Positions 13,854 through 36,684 of a stretch of 64,000 nt of DNA are shown in pieces. Source of the DNA: Hydrogenobaculum sp. Y04AAS1 (GTDB taxonomy: Bacteria > Aquificota > Aquificia > Aquificales > Aquificaceae); assembly GCF_000020785.1 (NCBI RefSeq), contig NC_011126.1, forward strand, positions 930,001 to 994,000, given 5' to 3'. Below the pieces are notes generated by a model. The model was not told the origin of the DNA, did not search any database, and saw nothing but the letters and a program-made list of their open reading frames with translations. The translations under genes were made by a program, and so were the position numbers. Position 1 is the stretch's first letter, and each line of letters opens with the position of its first letter.

Positions 13854-14155
13854 TTGAGTACTTTACACATTTTCACAAAAGCCTCAACACCAAATTTAGA
13901 AATCCCCTTGTTTAAAACAGCGCCTTTACAAGCCGCAGTACAAGCTTCTATAAAAAGTTTTGTGCTTTTAGAATTGGACTTAATGATCTTTGATAGTTCA
14001 TTTTCGAGATCACCACAGGCACTAAAATCGTGTTTTTGACCAAAATTAGCACAAGTTTCTAAAAACAAACCATAAACATCACATCTATCAAGGGCAAAAG
14101 AAGGGTTTAAGAGAAAAAGTGTTGCTAAAAACAATATAAGCATATTTCTATTCAT
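13850..14155 (-). CDS. Small Cys-containing secreted protein of unknown function
   Basis: From the ATG at 14155 the protein has 101 residues, with a signal peptide (NRN, hydrophobic core, then PSFA-L) and a mature part holding six cysteines, some in pairs (CDVYGLFLETC, ACTAAC). These could form disulfides in the periplasm. No family is recognised. A start 12 bases earlier is possible, but it would overlap lpxI further and lengthen the n-region. Position between lpxI and alr suggests co-transcription with them. Confidence 0.65.
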   Translation of the reverse strand: MNRNMLILFLATLFLLNPSFALDRCDVYGLFLETCANFGQKHDFSACGDLENELSKIIKSNSKSTKLFIEACTAACKGAVLNKGISKFGVEAFVKMCKVLK

Positions 14156-14933
14156 AAGCGTATACACCTATACCAAAACGGTTAGCCATTTTAATGAACT
14201 TTTCTTTTTCAAGTACGTAAACTTTACCTTTTTGAATAGCTATGGCTTTTGCCTTTGTCTCTTTTAAAGTATTTAACGTATCTATACCAACGGTGGGCAC
14301 ATCTATCCTAAAATCTTGATTTGTACGAGCTGATTTTATCACAACAATACCTTTACCAGCTATATCAAAAGCCCTAAGAATAGTTTTGTCTGTGCCTTCC
14401 ATAGCCTCCACAGCCACAACGGCTTTTTGTTTTACCACCACCGTTTGGCCTATATCCATATCGGCAATATTCTTTGCTATCTTTGCGCCAAACTCTATAT
14501 CTTCAACAACATTTTTATCTAACTCTACATCGTTTAAAAGTCCCCTTTTTTCTATTAAAAGCTCAGATAAATAAGGTTTTGGATCCAAAAATTTAAGCCC
14601 TTCCTCTTCCATAAACTTTATAAAAGCCTTTACTATGCTAGATGGTTTTCTATCTTTCAATGAAGCTAATATAGAAATAGCTTTTATATCATAATCTCTC
14701 GGATCTAAGCTTAATTTATGTTCAAATTTACCAAGCATAACTATTTGCTCTACGTTTTTTTCTTTTAAAAACTCTACAAGCTTTGATAGCTTACCAATAG
14801 GAAACGTTATATCTGATTTAATCGTAGTGATATCGTTTACGCCTATGGTAAAAACTTCATCACCGTTTTTTAAGGCATTTTTTCTAAATATTTCTGGTAG
14901 TTCTCCAGCACCAGCTATAAGACCTATTTTCAT
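14148..14933 (-). CDS. lpxI: UDP-2,3-diacylglucosamine pyrophosphatase LpxI
   Basis: The 261-residue protein is of the LpxI (DUF1009) type, which hydrolyses UDP-2,3-diacylglucosamine to lipid X in place of LpxH. Visible signatures are GLIAGAGELPE at the N-terminus, MLGKFEHKLSLDPRDYD in the middle, and VVKQKAVVAVEAMEGTD with VGIDTL in the C-terminal catalytic domain. Together with lpxA at 29 kb it shows an LPS-bearing outer membrane. A TGA-TATAAT element lies 8 nt before its ATG. Confidence 0.9.
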   Translation of the reverse strand: MKIGLIAGAGELPEIFRKNALKNGDEVFTIGVNDITTIKSDITFPIGKLSKLVEFLKEKNVEQIVMLGKFEHKLSLDPRDYDIKAISILASLKDRKPSSIVKAFIKFMEEEGLKFLDPKPYLSELLIEKRGLLNDVELDKNVVEDIEFGAKIAKNIADMDIGQTVVVKQKAVVAVEAMEGTDKTILRAFDIAGKGIVVIKSARTNQDFRIDVPTVGIDTLNTLKETKAKAIAIQKGKVYVLEKEKFIKMANRFGIGVYAYE

Positions 14934-14941
14934 TTTAAAAT

Positions 14942-14950
14942 ATTATATCA
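14942..14950 (-). promoter_or_regulatory. Extended -10 element (TGA-TATAAT) before lpxI
   Basis: Minus-strand TGA (14950-14948) and TATAAT (14947-14942) end 8 nt before the ATG at 14933. There is no Shine-Dalgarno sequence between them. Confidence 0.55.
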
Positions 14951-16270
14951 TTTGCATATATAAAAAGTTGTGCCGTCTTTTACTTCTACTTTTAGGTTAA
15001 AATTATGCACTTGGGCCACCGCTTTTACTATAGAAAGCCCTAGGCCAAGACCTCTTTTATCTTTTGAAACCCTGTAAAAACGTTCAAATATAAAAGGTAA
15101 ACTCTCTTTAGGTATACCAGGCCCAAAATCTTTCACATATATACAATCACCAGTATATCCAAGTATGATATCTTTATCAGAATACTTTATAGCATTTTCC
15201 AAAAGATTTTTCACAGCTATTTTTAAATAGTGTGGGTCTGCTATCCAAGTATCTTGGCTTTTAATATCAAGAATGATATTTCTATTCTGAATAGCAAACT
15301 CTTCTTTTAGTTGATTAAGAAGCAAAACCACATCTAACTCAGTCTTTGAAATAGGTATATTTGATTCTAAACGAGCCAAAGCCAAAAGGTCTTCTGTAAA
15401 CTTGCTAAGCACGTCCGTCTGTTTATAAACCTTCTTAAGCACGCCAAACACCTCATCTTCTTGATAAACTCCTGTCAAAATAAACTCAATTTGAGCTTTT
15501 ATATAGCTAATTGGCGTTTTAAATTCGTGAGAAACATCCGCTATAAAGTTTTTCTGAATTTTTATGGTGTTGTTTAATTTTTCTACCATGTTTTTGAAAG
15601 CCCTAAACATTATTCCGAATTCATCGCTGGTACTACTATCTGGAATATCTATATCCATATTACCAGCGTATATATTTTCAGATATTCTTGTGATATCATC
15701 AAGCTGTTTCAATATCCTGTTTAAAATTGTATATATGGTAAGTACAGAAAATATGACAATACCTACCGTAAGAACAATAAGCATATAAATAAATTGCTTT
15801 ATTACTTTATTTATCTCTCTTAATCTGCCTATTACCACAAAATACACATCTTTTGTTTTTTTGACTATGTAAGCGTAATCTTCTCCGTCCTCTTCAAAAG
15901 TACCCATTGACTTCTTTAAAAATAGATTTAAAATATAGCTGTTTATGGGTATAGGTTTTTCAGAATCTTCAAAAGACCCTACACTTAGCACACTACCATT
16001 TGAAGATAGCACAACAGCAGTTATATTTTCGGATGTAATGTCGTCTATCATATCTTTAGCCTCTTTAGCAAGATTGTTTGAATATATAGAATAGAACTCT
16101 ATAACAGGTTTTGCTTGATTGTTTAGATATGTGTACATATAGTTTATTAGGATTTTATGAAGAACAAATGATGTGCTAATGGCTACAAAACCCATACTTA
16201 AAATTACAAGAACACTAAAAAGGGTTATGAGTCTTAATCTAAAACTCGATGTATTTTTAAACCATAACAT
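14948..16270 (-). CDS. Membrane sensor histidine kinase (HAMP-HisKA-HATPase)
   Basis: The 440-residue protein has membrane helices at about residues 12-35 and 160-185, a periplasmic sensor region between them, a HAMP segment to about 232, and a HisKA domain with phospho-acceptor His248 in DVSHEFKTP. The ATPase part shows the N box (LLENAIKYS), G1 (DFGPGIP), F box (FERFYR) and G2 (GLGLGLSI). No response regulator is adjacent, so it is an orphan kinase of unknown signal. It follows infB by 6 bp, probably in the same transcript. Confidence 0.92.
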   Translation of the reverse strand: MLWFKNTSSFRLRLITLFSVLVILSMGFVAISTSFVLHKILINYMYTYLNNQAKPVIEFYSIYSNNLAKEAKDMIDDITSENITAVVLSSNGSVLSVGSFEDSEKPIPINSYILNLFLKKSMGTFEEDGEDYAYIVKKTKDVYFVVIGRLREINKVIKQFIYMLIVLTVGIVIFSVLTIYTILNRILKQLDDITRISENIYAGNMDIDIPDSSTSDEFGIMFRAFKNMVEKLNNTIKIQKNFIADVSHEFKTPISYIKAQIEFILTGVYQEDEVFGVLKKVYKQTDVLSKFTEDLLALARLESNIPISKTELDVVLLLNQLKEEFAIQNRNIILDIKSQDTWIADPHYLKIAVKNLLENAIKYSDKDIILGYTGDCIYVKDFGPGIPKESLPFIFERFYRVSKDKRGLGLGLSIVKAVAQVHNFNLKVEVKDGTTFYICK

Positions 16271-33603: not shown

Positions 33604-34764
33604 TTATGCCAACAAGCTATCTATTCGCTCTTTTAATATTGTAGTAGTGATCTCTCTTATTATAGCTTTTATATCTTCTTCTTTTATAGCTGTTTCTATC
33701 TCTTTTGTGGCTATGTTCATAATTTCATTTCTCATGTTGTTTACTATTTCGTTGACACTGTTTAACATAAGTGATTTTATATCCTCAGTGGCTATCTGAG
33801 ATTGTATAGCGTTTTTTGCAAGCTCTCTAAAATCTATACCAGACAAAGACTCTCTTACAGAGTTTCTTATCTCTTCTTTTAGTACATCTACTATAATATC
33901 TTTTAAATGGCTTTTTGAAGAATCCATAGCTAAAACCTCCGATATCTTATCTAATCCTTTCTTAGCCTTTCTTGAACTAATATTATATTCCGATATAAGC
34001 TTTAAAACTATTGTTTTTAAAGAATTTTCTATTTCTGCTTTTACGATACCCACCTTCTTGACGATAGGTATACGGCTTATATCTATAGGAAACATATCAT
34101 CTAACACGATGATAACAGGAATATCTGCATTTTTATACATGTTTATAAGCTCTCTTGCCGCCGATACGCCTTCTGTGGTATCGTATATTATAATATCTGA
34201 ATTAAATATCTCATCTTTATTTATTTGTTCTGGTGAAAATATTTTTACGTAAGCTATATTTTCTAAAGCGCTTTTTATGTTGTCTAGGAGCTCTTTGTCT
34301 TTTGATATTACAGATATTTCAACGCCTGTATGAGATTCCTTATCATACTCATAACTTCCTTGAGTTTTTAAAGAATATTCGTTTACAGATTTATCTCTTG
34401 AAACATTTGTATTTGATGTAATTAGCTCTTTGTATTTCTTTATAAGCTCTGGTAAAACAGATAACTCTCTATCCCTTGATATAATGATCTTACCAGGTAT
34501 TTTTAGGTTGTCTGGGTCTATGGGAAAAAGATCATCCATCAGGACAATATATTTTGAGTTTCTATAGGCTTTTTCAAATAAAGAGTTCAAATCGTTCTCA
34601 GACACAAGGCCAGAGACCGCATCGTAAATTATTATATCTATGTCTTTTAGTGCATTTCTTATAGCTTCCTCGCCGTTTTTCACAAAAATAATGTTTTCTC
34701 CCGAAAGAAGATATTGTAACTTTTCTATTAAAAGCCTATCAAAAGAAGATACCAAAATCTTCAT
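33604..34764 (-). CDS. Tandem degenerate receiver-like protein, unknown function
   Basis: The 386-residue protein has two similar units, about residues 1-113 and 146-255. Each starts with a short beta strand and one acidic residue (SSFD, SKDKE), has IIIYDxxxG at the place of the receiver phospho-Asp, and then V-x-DD-x-FPID. This looks like a duplicated CheY-like fold, with the usual Asp pair and Thr/Lys partly lost, so phosphorylation is uncertain. Residues about 262-386 are amphipathic helices (LKDIIVDVLKEEI and similar repeats). It overlaps the next gene upstream by 4 bp. No family is recognised. Confidence 0.6.
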   Translation of the reverse strand: MKILVSSFDRLLIEKLQYLLSGENIIFVKNGEEAIRNALKDIDIIIYDAVSGLVSENDLNSLFEKAYRNSKYIVLMDDLFPIDPDNLKIPGKIIISRDRELSVLPELIKKYKELITSNTNVSRDKSVNEYSLKTQGSYEYDKESHTGVEISVISKDKELLDNIKSALENIAYVKIFSPEQINKDEIFNSDIIIYDTTEGVSAARELINMYKNADIPVIIVLDDMFPIDISRIPIVKKVGIVKAEIENSLKTIVLKLISEYNISSRKAKKGLDKISEVLAMDSSKSHLKDIIVDVLKEEIRNSVRESLSGIDFRELAKNAIQSQIATEDIKSLMLNSVNEIVNNMRNEIMNIATKEIETAIKEEDIKAIIREITTTILKERIDSLLA

Positions 34765-35354
34765 GATTTGCTCTCCTTAGAGCGTTCTTTTGCATAACTT
34801 AGTATTATGTCTATTATACGCTTTGCTTCTTCCGAGCTTTCTTGGGGTATTATCTTTGCTGTGGCGATGGTAAGCCTTAACGCCTTTAGCCTTTCTATCA
34901 ACTCTTCATCAAGATAATCTACAAAGGTTTTCCTAAGACTCCATACTATCCATGTTGCTATCGCAAGCCCTATCAAAAACATACCAACGGCTATAGGCGT
35001 CCTAAAAAGCTCTGTCATAATATCGCCAAAACTAGTTATCTTGATACCTACTATTACTGTATCGTTTCCTATCTTCTGGGTGGCCCCATGAAATAGGTTT
35101 TGGTCTATGGGATGGTTTATAAGGTTTGTAGATTTTATAACACCGTTTGGAGTCCTCACAACCACCACCATATCTTCACCATAGGGTAACACTATTTGAT
35201 TTGAATTTGATTTTATGCTGTATAAAGCCATTGCCATATCTTTTGATATATGCTCTTCTTTTGTATAATAATAATAATCTGAAGCTATGTAAAAACTTCC
35301 CACTATAAAAAATATTGCGCAAAACATGGCAAAAAGCGATGTAAAGATGTTCAT
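34761..35354 (-). CDS. Two-helix membrane protein with periplasmic domain, unknown function
   Basis: The 197-residue protein has an N-terminal membrane helix (about 4-24), a periplasmic part of about 90 residues, a second membrane helix (about 119-141) and a cytoplasmic helical tail rich in Lys and Glu. The topology is that of a sensor or chemoreceptor-like input module without a HAMP or output domain. Its stop overlaps the ATG of the tandem receiver-like gene, and it follows tldE by 1 bp. No family recognised. A shared signalling or localisation role with its partner is inferred. Confidence 0.6.
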   Translation of the reverse strand: MNIFTSLFAMFCAIFFIVGSFYIASDYYYYTKEEHISKDMAMALYSIKSNSNQIVLPYGEDMVVVVRTPNGVIKSTNLINHPIDQNLFHGATQKIGNDTVIVGIKITSFGDIMTELFRTPIAVGMFLIGLAIATWIVWSLRKTFVDYLDEELIERLKALRLTIATAKIIPQESSEEAKRIIDIILSYAKERSKESKS

Positions 35355-35355
35355 A

Positions 35356-36684
35356 TCATACTCCCCCTATTGTGATATTTTCTACCAACACTGAAGGAGA
35401 TCCCACATGTCCAAAAAACCTAAAGTCATTTCCTACCAATTTTATTTTCTTTAAAAGCTCCAAAAAGTTTGAGGCTACAGTTACCGCTCTTATAGCATAC
35501 ATAGGTTTTGCATTTTGATAAACAATACCAGAAGCACCCAAAGAAAAGTTTCCAGAAATAGGGTCTGCCATATGAAGACCCATAAGCTCCGTAATATATA
35601 CACACTCTTCATAAGCACCAAGAAGTGTTTCTAAAGAATTGTTTTTAGGTACCAAATAAAAGTTGTGAATTCCAGTTTGTGGTACAGATCTATAACCTGC
35701 TCTTACGCTGTTGGCGGTAGACTCTTTATTGGATTTTTTAGCTGTGTATATGTTGTGCAAAAACATTTTAAAAACACCGTTTTCTACCACTATATTTTTT
35801 TGGGTTGGATTTCCATCGGCATCAAAGCGAGAACTTCCCAAAGCTCTATTTATAGTGCCATCATCTATTATAGTTACCTCTTCACTGGCTATCTGCTCTT
35901 GTAGTTTATCTTTTAGCATAGTTTTATTTTTTATAAGAGAGTCTCCTAAAAATACACTGGAAAATGCCCTTAGCAAAGATACCATGCTATCCGGTGAGAA
36001 AACCACCGGTAATGACTTTGTTTCAAAGCTTTTAGGATTAAGAAGATTTACCGTATTTATAGCTATTTCCTTCGAAAGTAAGTCAAAATCCAAATCCTCA
36101 TAAAATCTACTAGCTATATAAGAGCATCCGGAGGATGTATCTTCACCATCTTTTGCTATAGCACACCCCATTACAAAGAAACCGCTCAACGTTTCTTCTA
36201 TTTTTACTCCGTAGGAGTTTTCCATAAAATAAGAATATGTGGACTCTGCGTAAGATAAGTCCCTAACCAAAGCTATACGAGGATCGTAAGCCTTTATTTT
36301 ATCTTCTGTCTCTAAGAGTTTATTTATCTTTAGTTGTCTATCCTTAGAAAGACCTTCTTTATCAAAGAGCTCTATTTGATTTTTATTTTCTTTTTGTTCT
36401 TTTAAAAGCTCAAAAACATCCTCTTTCTCTTGAGATAGATCTATGTCCATTGCTATTTTCGTACAATCTTCTATGTCTTTTTTTGTAAGCTTCGTAGTAT
36501 AAGAAAATCCCACTTTTCCATCTTTTATAACCCTTATACCCAAACCTTGTTCTTTTGAGGCTTCAACTCTATCTATAGCTTTATCCTCAATGTCAATCTT
36601 TACTTTGTTAGATTGACTTACATATATCTCAAACTCAAACCCTTCTTTTATGACATTCTTTACAATAGCCTTTATATCTTCCAT
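35356..36684 (-). CDS. pmbA: TldD/PmbA family metalloprotease subunit (TldE-like)
   Basis: The 442-residue protein is of the TldE/PmbA branch. It lacks the HExxxH zinc motif of TldD. It has the family pieces GLGIRVIKDGKVGFSYT near residue 46, AGYRSVPQTGIHNFYL near 330, and the C-terminal VGNDFRFFGHVGSPSVLVENITIGG. TldD and TldE together form a protease that clips unfolded peptides. No tldD gene is in the window. A TATAAT ends 6 nt before the ATG and there is no Shine-Dalgarno sequence. Confidence 0.88.
   Translation of the reverse strand: MEDIKAIVKNVIKEGFEFEIYVSQSNKVKIDIEDKAIDRVEASKEQGLGIRVIKDGKVGFSYTTKLTKKDIEDCTKIAMDIDLSQEKEDVFELLKEQKENKNQIELFDKEGLSKDRQLKINKLLETEDKIKAYDPRIALVRDLSYAESTYSYFMENSYGVKIEETLSGFFVMGCAIAKDGEDTSSGCSYIASRFYEDLDFDLLSKEIAINTVNLLNPKSFETKSLPVVFSPDSMVSLLRAFSSVFLGDSLIKNKTMLKDKLQEQIASEEVTIIDDGTINRALGSSRFDADGNPTQKNIVVENGVFKMFLHNIYTAKKSNKESTANSVRAGYRSVPQTGIHNFYLVPKNNSLETLLGAYEECVYITELMGLHMADPISGNFSLGASGIVYQNAKPMYAIRAVTVASNFLELLKKIKLVGNDFRFFGHVGSPSVLVENITIGGV

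Follow-up and report, generated by a model that had tools for sequence, protein, structure and literature searches.

The locus described here lies on the minus strand of a 64,000-nucleotide window (the whole stretch of DNA that was analyzed) of the Hydrogenobaculum sp. Y04AAS1 genome, itself a single contig of 1,559,514 bases, and raises the question of what a protein built from two degenerate receiver-like units does beside a small membrane protein and with no adjacent kinase. The two proteins, named RR and MEM here, form a real, lineage-restricted pair of a known kind, the pseudo-receiver signaling type, with an unusual build. Literature searches, which covered titles and abstracts and had most subscription papers outside their scope, revealed no apparent description of the pair. 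The features of the locus are as follows:

33604–34764 (−), RR, tandem pseudo-receiver protein of 386 aa (open reading frame, orthologs, AF2 model, PleD fold match)
34761–35354 (−), MEM, two-TM partner of 197 aa (open reading frame, orthologs)
35356–36684 (−), presumed pmbA/tldE, peptidase partner subunit, constant upstream neighbor of MEM in Aquificaceae
34998–35282 (−), predicted extracytoplasmic loop of MEM, about residues 25–119, four-stranded sheet
34764–34928 (−), putative cytoplasmic tail of MEM, residues 143–197, conserved helical hairpin
34417–34764 (−), pseudo-receiver unit A of RR, residues 1–116, the most conserved part of the protein
34516–34527 (−), FPID motif of unit A, F80–D83, family-wide LxD[DE]LFP[VI][DN]
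34330–34416 (−), linker 1 of RR, disordered, residues 117–145 (pLDDT <50 at 119–143)
33985–34329 (−), pseudo-receiver unit B of RR, residues 146–260
34081–34092 (−), FPID motif of unit B, F225–D228
33682–33984 (−), linker 2 and helical region of RR, residues 261–361 (low AF2 confidence at 267–330)
33607–33681 (−), conserved C-terminal helix of RR, residues 362–386, family consensus DI..IIRE....LKERL.ELI

Gene Layout and Distribution in the Aquificota

Both open reading frames of the original prediction, for a two-helix membrane protein overlapping a 386-residue protein by 4 bp, were found, with the overlap at 34761–34764; the third constant member of the cluster, absent from that earlier reading, is a gene at 35356–36684 that we take to be pmbA/tldE. 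RR orthologs were recovered from 66 of 136 Aquificota genomes, specifically 59 of the 64 Aquificaceae (f1) and all seven members of a sister family (f3), and none were found in the families f2, f4, and f5. MEM orthologs were present in 61 of the 64 Aquificaceae and in no other family; the five Aquificaceae genomes that lack RR are 65–91% complete, and three of the five have MEM. Across 84,980 species genomes, 50 RR loci were found, all but two of which carry Aquificota names; the other two are on contigs of metagenome-assembled genomes titled Acidobacteria (J001, L125) and Gammaproteobacteria (MAG 128, L140), which look mislabeled.

The predicted pairing is conserved: among 52 Aquificaceae loci, 48 have MEM as the next gene upstream of RR, in the same orientation. 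Of the remaining four, two are contig ends, one is a locus in which MEM is present and was missed in open reading frame picking, and one is an extra RR paralog. The last belongs to genome G048, in which a second RR copy occurs with neither MEM nor tldE (L066, 8176–9357, minus strand; L121, 6001–7179, plus strand), in addition to a normal cluster (L055). In every Aquificaceae genus with enough sequence, pmbA/tldE precedes MEM on the same strand. The genes outside this trio served as an internal comparison for conserved order, and they varied: upstream there are at least five different genes among the genera, and downstream are genes that we take, from their sequences rather than from profiles, to be topA (g1), rsmH (g2), purB (g3, g10, and g11), or an ABC substrate-binding gene (g4, g6, g8, and g9). 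Because the trio is constant while its outer neighbors change, the tldE-MEM-RR cluster is likely functional, as judged against these outer neighbors. In the sister family f3, RR is found with neither MEM nor tldE beside it, and RR must therefore also serve some function independent of MEM. The f3 neighborhood is also unlike that of the Aquificaceae in that RR often follows a hypF-like gene (L077, L082, L062, and L083).

No relative of the pair was found in viral contigs, no PADLOC anti-phage defense model matched either of the window’s two proteins at E ≤ 0.1, and their PHROG matches were all insignificant; a phage or defense origin was rejected on these grounds.

RR Consists of Two Duplicated Receiver-Like Units and a Helical C-Terminus

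The repeated motifs noted in the original prediction, IIIYDxxxG and DD-x-FPID, are present at equivalent positions of units A and B, as IIIYDAVSG/IIIYDTTEG and DDLFPID/DDMFPID, respectively. When the two units were cut from the RR family alignment and compared profile to profile (hhalign), they were homologous with a probability of 99.9% (E 5e-34), against 5.8% for the reversed control. Compared with eight canonical receivers of the same genome, unit A matched at 95.9% over residues 1–75 and unit B more weakly, at 70%, with reversed controls at ≤1%. The AF2 model of RR (mean pLDDT 76, about 90 over both units) has receiver-type strand-helix repeats in both units, low confidence at 119–143 and 267–330, and C-terminal helices at 326–362 and 365–385. 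In a Foldseek search of the PDB, the nine best matches of this model were all to the tandem-receiver protein PleD (E 8.7e-8), at low TM-scores of about 0.2, which presumably stem from the undefined relative placement of the RR parts, and with NAD-dependent dehydrogenases ranking close behind. Given those low scores and the dehydrogenases, the receiver assignment rests on the profile result and the fold match together. A PDB sequence search with the single RR protein returned nothing useful, and one with the RR profile gave weak receiver matches only. The units of RR are of receiver ancestry and arose by tandem duplication, which sustains the earlier description of two degenerate CheY-like units.

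No Pfam, NCBIfam, PHROG, or PADLOC model passed its cut-off for either window protein, in keeping with the suggestion that the shared motif marks no known family, with the exception that three relatives of RR pass the Pfam family NARF (PF20299), weighed below. Response_reg (PF00072) was matched in 4 of 44 RR members, the best at 20.4 bits (E 6e-4) against a cut-off of 30.2, and no member exceeded that cut-off.

Linker 1 is acidic (E+D 26%), contains Pro, and ranges in length from 18 to 130 across the RR family. The helical C-terminus of the 386-residue protein, also part of the original prediction, appears in the model as the long helices given above, through which RR may oligomerize. A search of the 136 genomes for this C-terminal module gave no strong match outside the RR family. 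The idea of a module shared with other proteins was rejected, as the outside matches were weak, with many in open reading frames of about 150 aa; these are probably generic amphipathic helices.

Most Catalytic Positions Are Substituted, and a Polar Set Is Conserved in Both Units

A receiver counts as a pseudo-receiver when at least one of five catalytic residues is absent (PMC12632262). The catalytic positions of RR were read from the profile alignment and column counts, and the Thr/Ser position also from the end of the fourth strand of the model. Across 58 sequences, four of the five positions are substituted throughout in unit A and nearly throughout in unit B, and both units are therefore pseudo-receivers. 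In place of the metal-binding Asp pair, unit A has S7/F8 (S/T and F in the family) and unit B has S154/F155 (S and F/K/R/L in the family; K155 in the window RR). The Thr/Ser position is V, Y, or M in unit A, followed by D77, and I, V, L, or M in unit B (T in 2 of 58), followed by D222. The catalytic Lys is an Arg in unit A (R97 in 57 of 57), and the corresponding position of unit B holds R in 54 sequences and K in four, including the window RR. The phosphoacceptor Asp is kept in both units, as D48 (57 of 57) and D195 (58 of 58). Further conserved residues bring the list for unit A to F8, D9, K29, N30, E33, D48, A49, E56, N60, D77, F80, P81, K92, and R97, and that for unit B to S154, D156, D195, G199, A202, D222, I227, and R/K242. 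FP[VI][DN] lies in the loop that joins strands 4 and 5, and the model shows no alpha4 helix there.

The polar set formed by D9, D48, D77, and R97 and its unit B equivalents is conserved in both units, which argues for specialization rather than decay. Because four of five catalytic positions are substituted, a mode of action that does not use a histidine kinase is likely, as the original prediction had supposed; because neither unit ever varies at the phosphoacceptor Asp, weak or unusual phosphorylation of RR may occur. RR proteins with and without MEM are separated at ten positions, most clearly by K237 to L, a comparison confounded by clade divergence.

A Possible Resemblance of MEM to the Sensor Half of a Kinase

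The predicted two-helix membrane protein with a domain between its helices was recovered in MEM, in which two TM segments (hydropathy 2.3 and 2.1) flank a loop of ∼95 residues with four strands. The loop is putatively extracytoplasmic, as judged from the positive N-terminus, with a weak charge signal. The most conserved part of MEM is its tail, a predicted helical hairpin with the consensus KALRLTLAT.KIIPEES..EAK.ILDDIL, in which K157 is present in 49 of 49 sequences. A fold search with MEM gave no match at E ≤ 0.001.

In full-length hhalign comparison, MEM scored 30.1 (local) and 27.4 (global) against a Hydrogenobaculum histidine kinase, the resemblance lying in the TM-sensor-TM half; column shuffles averaged 16.9 and 5.3, respectively, with at least one shuffle exceeding the local score and values as high as 37.7, and 57 control families gave probabilities of ≤1.7%. 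The likeness of MEM to a kinase sensor half, which stands above the 57 control families and not above every column shuffle, is suggestive. This kinase, with its small MEM-like sensor half, is encoded in the same genome (G000:C1:1156226–1157254, minus strand).

Proposed Mechanism

Pseudo-receivers of known mechanism work by binding ligands, by contacting other proteins, or through their oligomeric state (PMC12632262), and this class of mechanism is therefore the default for RR. From the combined evidence we infer a function for the RR-MEM pair, and the best reading, which we hold tentatively and at a little less than an even chance, is a phosphorylation-independent, membrane-coupled signaling or scaffolding module with its output via the helical C-terminus. 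RR would act with no need for phosphorylation of Asp. MEM, which has the shape of a kinase-less sensor, would detect or mark something in the envelope, and its conserved cytoplasmic hairpin would pass the signal on by touching the pseudo-receivers directly, with the nearly invariant unit A as the likeliest site of contact. Such contact would alter the packing of the two units so that the helical C-terminus becomes exposed or clustered, and this C-terminus would be the output, through oligomerization or partner binding. The polar set may lock the receiver fold in one state or bind a small ligand. Signaling by the pair probably relies on direct contact between proteins, the MEM-RR contact itself being proposed from the features above. 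In favor of this mechanism are the receiver homology and tandem duplication, the substituted catalytic sites with one polar set kept in both units, the linkage of MEM to RR despite changing outer neighbors, the conserved MEM tail, and the likeness to a sensor half, whereas the invariant phosphoacceptor Asp and the seven f3 genomes and the G048 paralog, which have RR without MEM, speak against it.

Alternative Explanations

Several other readings start from the identity and chemistry of the two proteins. NARF is the closest Pfam family by score and the one most often matched, by 12 of 44 RR members at E ≤ 0.01; three Hydrogenobacter-type relatives (g4) pass its cut-off of 25 in unit B, at 27.5, 28.7, and 25.6 bits, other members have weaker matches, located in unit A, and nearly all NARF matches in the 136 genomes scanned are RR family proteins. 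NARF has a Rossmannoid fold, and no description of the family was found in the literature searched. If the units were NARF-type Rossmannoid domains and not receivers, their function would follow NARF and not two-component signaling, but the window RR and most members lie below the cut-off, receivers match both by profile, where D48 aligns with the phosphoacceptor, and by fold, and no nucleotidyltransferase was recognized beside the RR gene among neighbors that are only partly annotated by profile. We regard this reading as very unlikely; NARF and receivers may themselves be related domains. A phosphorylation-dependent regulator with a remodeled site, in which a kinase elsewhere phosphorylates D48 and/or D195, would account for the invariance of these residues in all aligned members, and substitutions at the DD, T, or K positions do not always abolish phosphotransfer (PMC12632262). 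It is nonetheless unlikely, as both metal-binding Asp positions are replaced in both units, the Thr/Ser position holds a hydrophobic residue or Tyr beside a conserved Asp, and the Lys is mostly Arg. For the orphan kinase at 14948–16270, which the original prediction had named as a possible partner, full-length orthologs occur in g1, g4, g6, g8, and g9, but none in g2, g10, and g11, and only one in the 17 g3 genomes, nearly all of which bear the pair. In four genera, most genomes that bear the pair lack this kinase, and it was rejected as an obligate or general partner. Its gene lies between infB and a 261-aa open reading frame (14148–14933), and its orthologs are patchy in the Aquificaceae. 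The pair could also be a fossil two-component system, with MEM a degenerate histidine kinase and its tail a dead DHp whose His has become K157. The layout and predicted helical hairpin of MEM fit this, and in the full-length profile comparison K157 falls close to the His of the Hydrogenobaculum kinase; however, the tail alone scored only 12.2 against the DHp region, with one column aligned, and shuffles averaged 9.7 with a maximum of 15.0. The tail as a dead DHp, an idea that came from a hand alignment and the full-length match, was accordingly rejected as no better than shuffles, and the fossil system is extremely improbable.

Other readings turn on the output of the pair. Like the polarity protein RomR, which has been reported from Aquificales, RR runs from receiver through a variable linker to a helical C-terminus, and a second polarity protein, FrzS, is a pseudo-receiver (PMC3441718, PMC1974792), so that a pole-targeting C-terminus controlling pili or motility can be imagined. 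RomR, however, has one receiver where RR has two, and its C-terminal signature includes an invariant Trp and Pro (PMC3441718), whereas the C-terminal block of RR has no invariant Trp in 37 members. In addition, no Roadblock/LC7 (MglB-type) protein was detectable in any of five Hydrogenobaculum genomes (G000 and G030–G033), all of which keep RR, and a RomR-type link of RR to MglA/MglB is unlikely for this reason. Membership in a RomR/MglAB module was rejected on the Trp signature and the absence of MglB in Hydrogenobaculum, and we judge a polarity role improbable. Among the other Aquificaceae, nearly all encode between one and four Roadblock/LC7 proteins. A further alternative concerns the third gene: the peptidase to which TldE contributes the non-catalytic half has relaxed specificity, and access to it must be restricted (PMC5810440), and the constancy of tldE upstream of MEM-RR in all Aquificaceae genera that could be examined, despite changing outer neighbors, suggests an effect of the pair on the TldD/TldE peptidase. 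MEM and RR would then recruit or gate TldE, and thereby catalytic TldD, at the membrane. Against this, TldE-type proteins occur in 122 of 136 Aquificota genomes, mostly with two matches each (the second more distant and TldD-like), including families that have neither MEM nor RR; the RR genes of f3 lie away from tldE; and the co-location may reflect co-expression alone. Membrane-tethered control of TldD/TldE is possible but rather doubtful. A bolder combination, in which the trio is a new phosphorylation-free system whose kinase-less sensor docks on pseudo-receivers with a novel ligand pocket and whose output controls TldD/TldE at the membrane, strikes us as quite unlikely.

Significance and Comparison With Known Systems

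The cluster is a nearly universal Aquificaceae system with an operon-linked membrane partner and an alternative polar set that occurs twice in one protein, and within this lineage it provides TldE with a candidate partner. Proteins from thermophiles are usually favorable for structure determination, and the small RR-MEM pair is a tractable test case for pseudo-receiver regulation, with directly testable questions, namely whether unit A is bound by the MEM tail and what occupies the putative pocket. A 2025 review regards the switching of pseudo-receivers as a mystery (PMC12632262).

RR resembles the bacterial pseudo-receiver proteins, or atypical response regulators (PMC12632262), with which it shares a receiver fold, the loss of catalytic residues, and no adjacent kinase. 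It differs from them in having two tandem pseudo-receivers with a polar set of their own, a membrane partner dedicated to it, no alpha4 helix in the model, and scores that in all 44 members stay under the PF00072 cut-off. The TldD/TldE (PmbA) peptidase is linked to the pair by the conserved position of tldE next to MEM-RR, and the literature searched yielded no TldE system that includes a pseudo-receiver or a membrane partner. By score, NARF is the nearest curated family, with the differences set out above.

Among individual proteins, the N-terminal pseudo-receiver of KaiA similarly has a fold like that of receivers and aligns poorly to canonical ones, but its output and lineage are different from those of RR. 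The Myxococcus protein RomR combines a receiver, an unstructured linker, and a conserved helical C-terminus; it has a single receiver, a different C-terminal signature, and co-occurs with MglA/MglB, whereas Hydrogenobaculum is without MglB. FrzS, also from Myxococcus, is a pseudo-receiver that acts by protein contact and has a helical C-terminal region, but it has lost the phosphoacceptor Asp and carries a 258-residue coiled coil, whereas the Asp of RR is invariant and its units are two. PleD of Caulobacter, the best PDB fold match, likewise has two tandem receiver-type units, one of them a pseudo-receiver; in PleD a true receiver comes first and the output is a GGDEF domain, whereas in RR both units are pseudo-receivers and the helical tail is the putative output.
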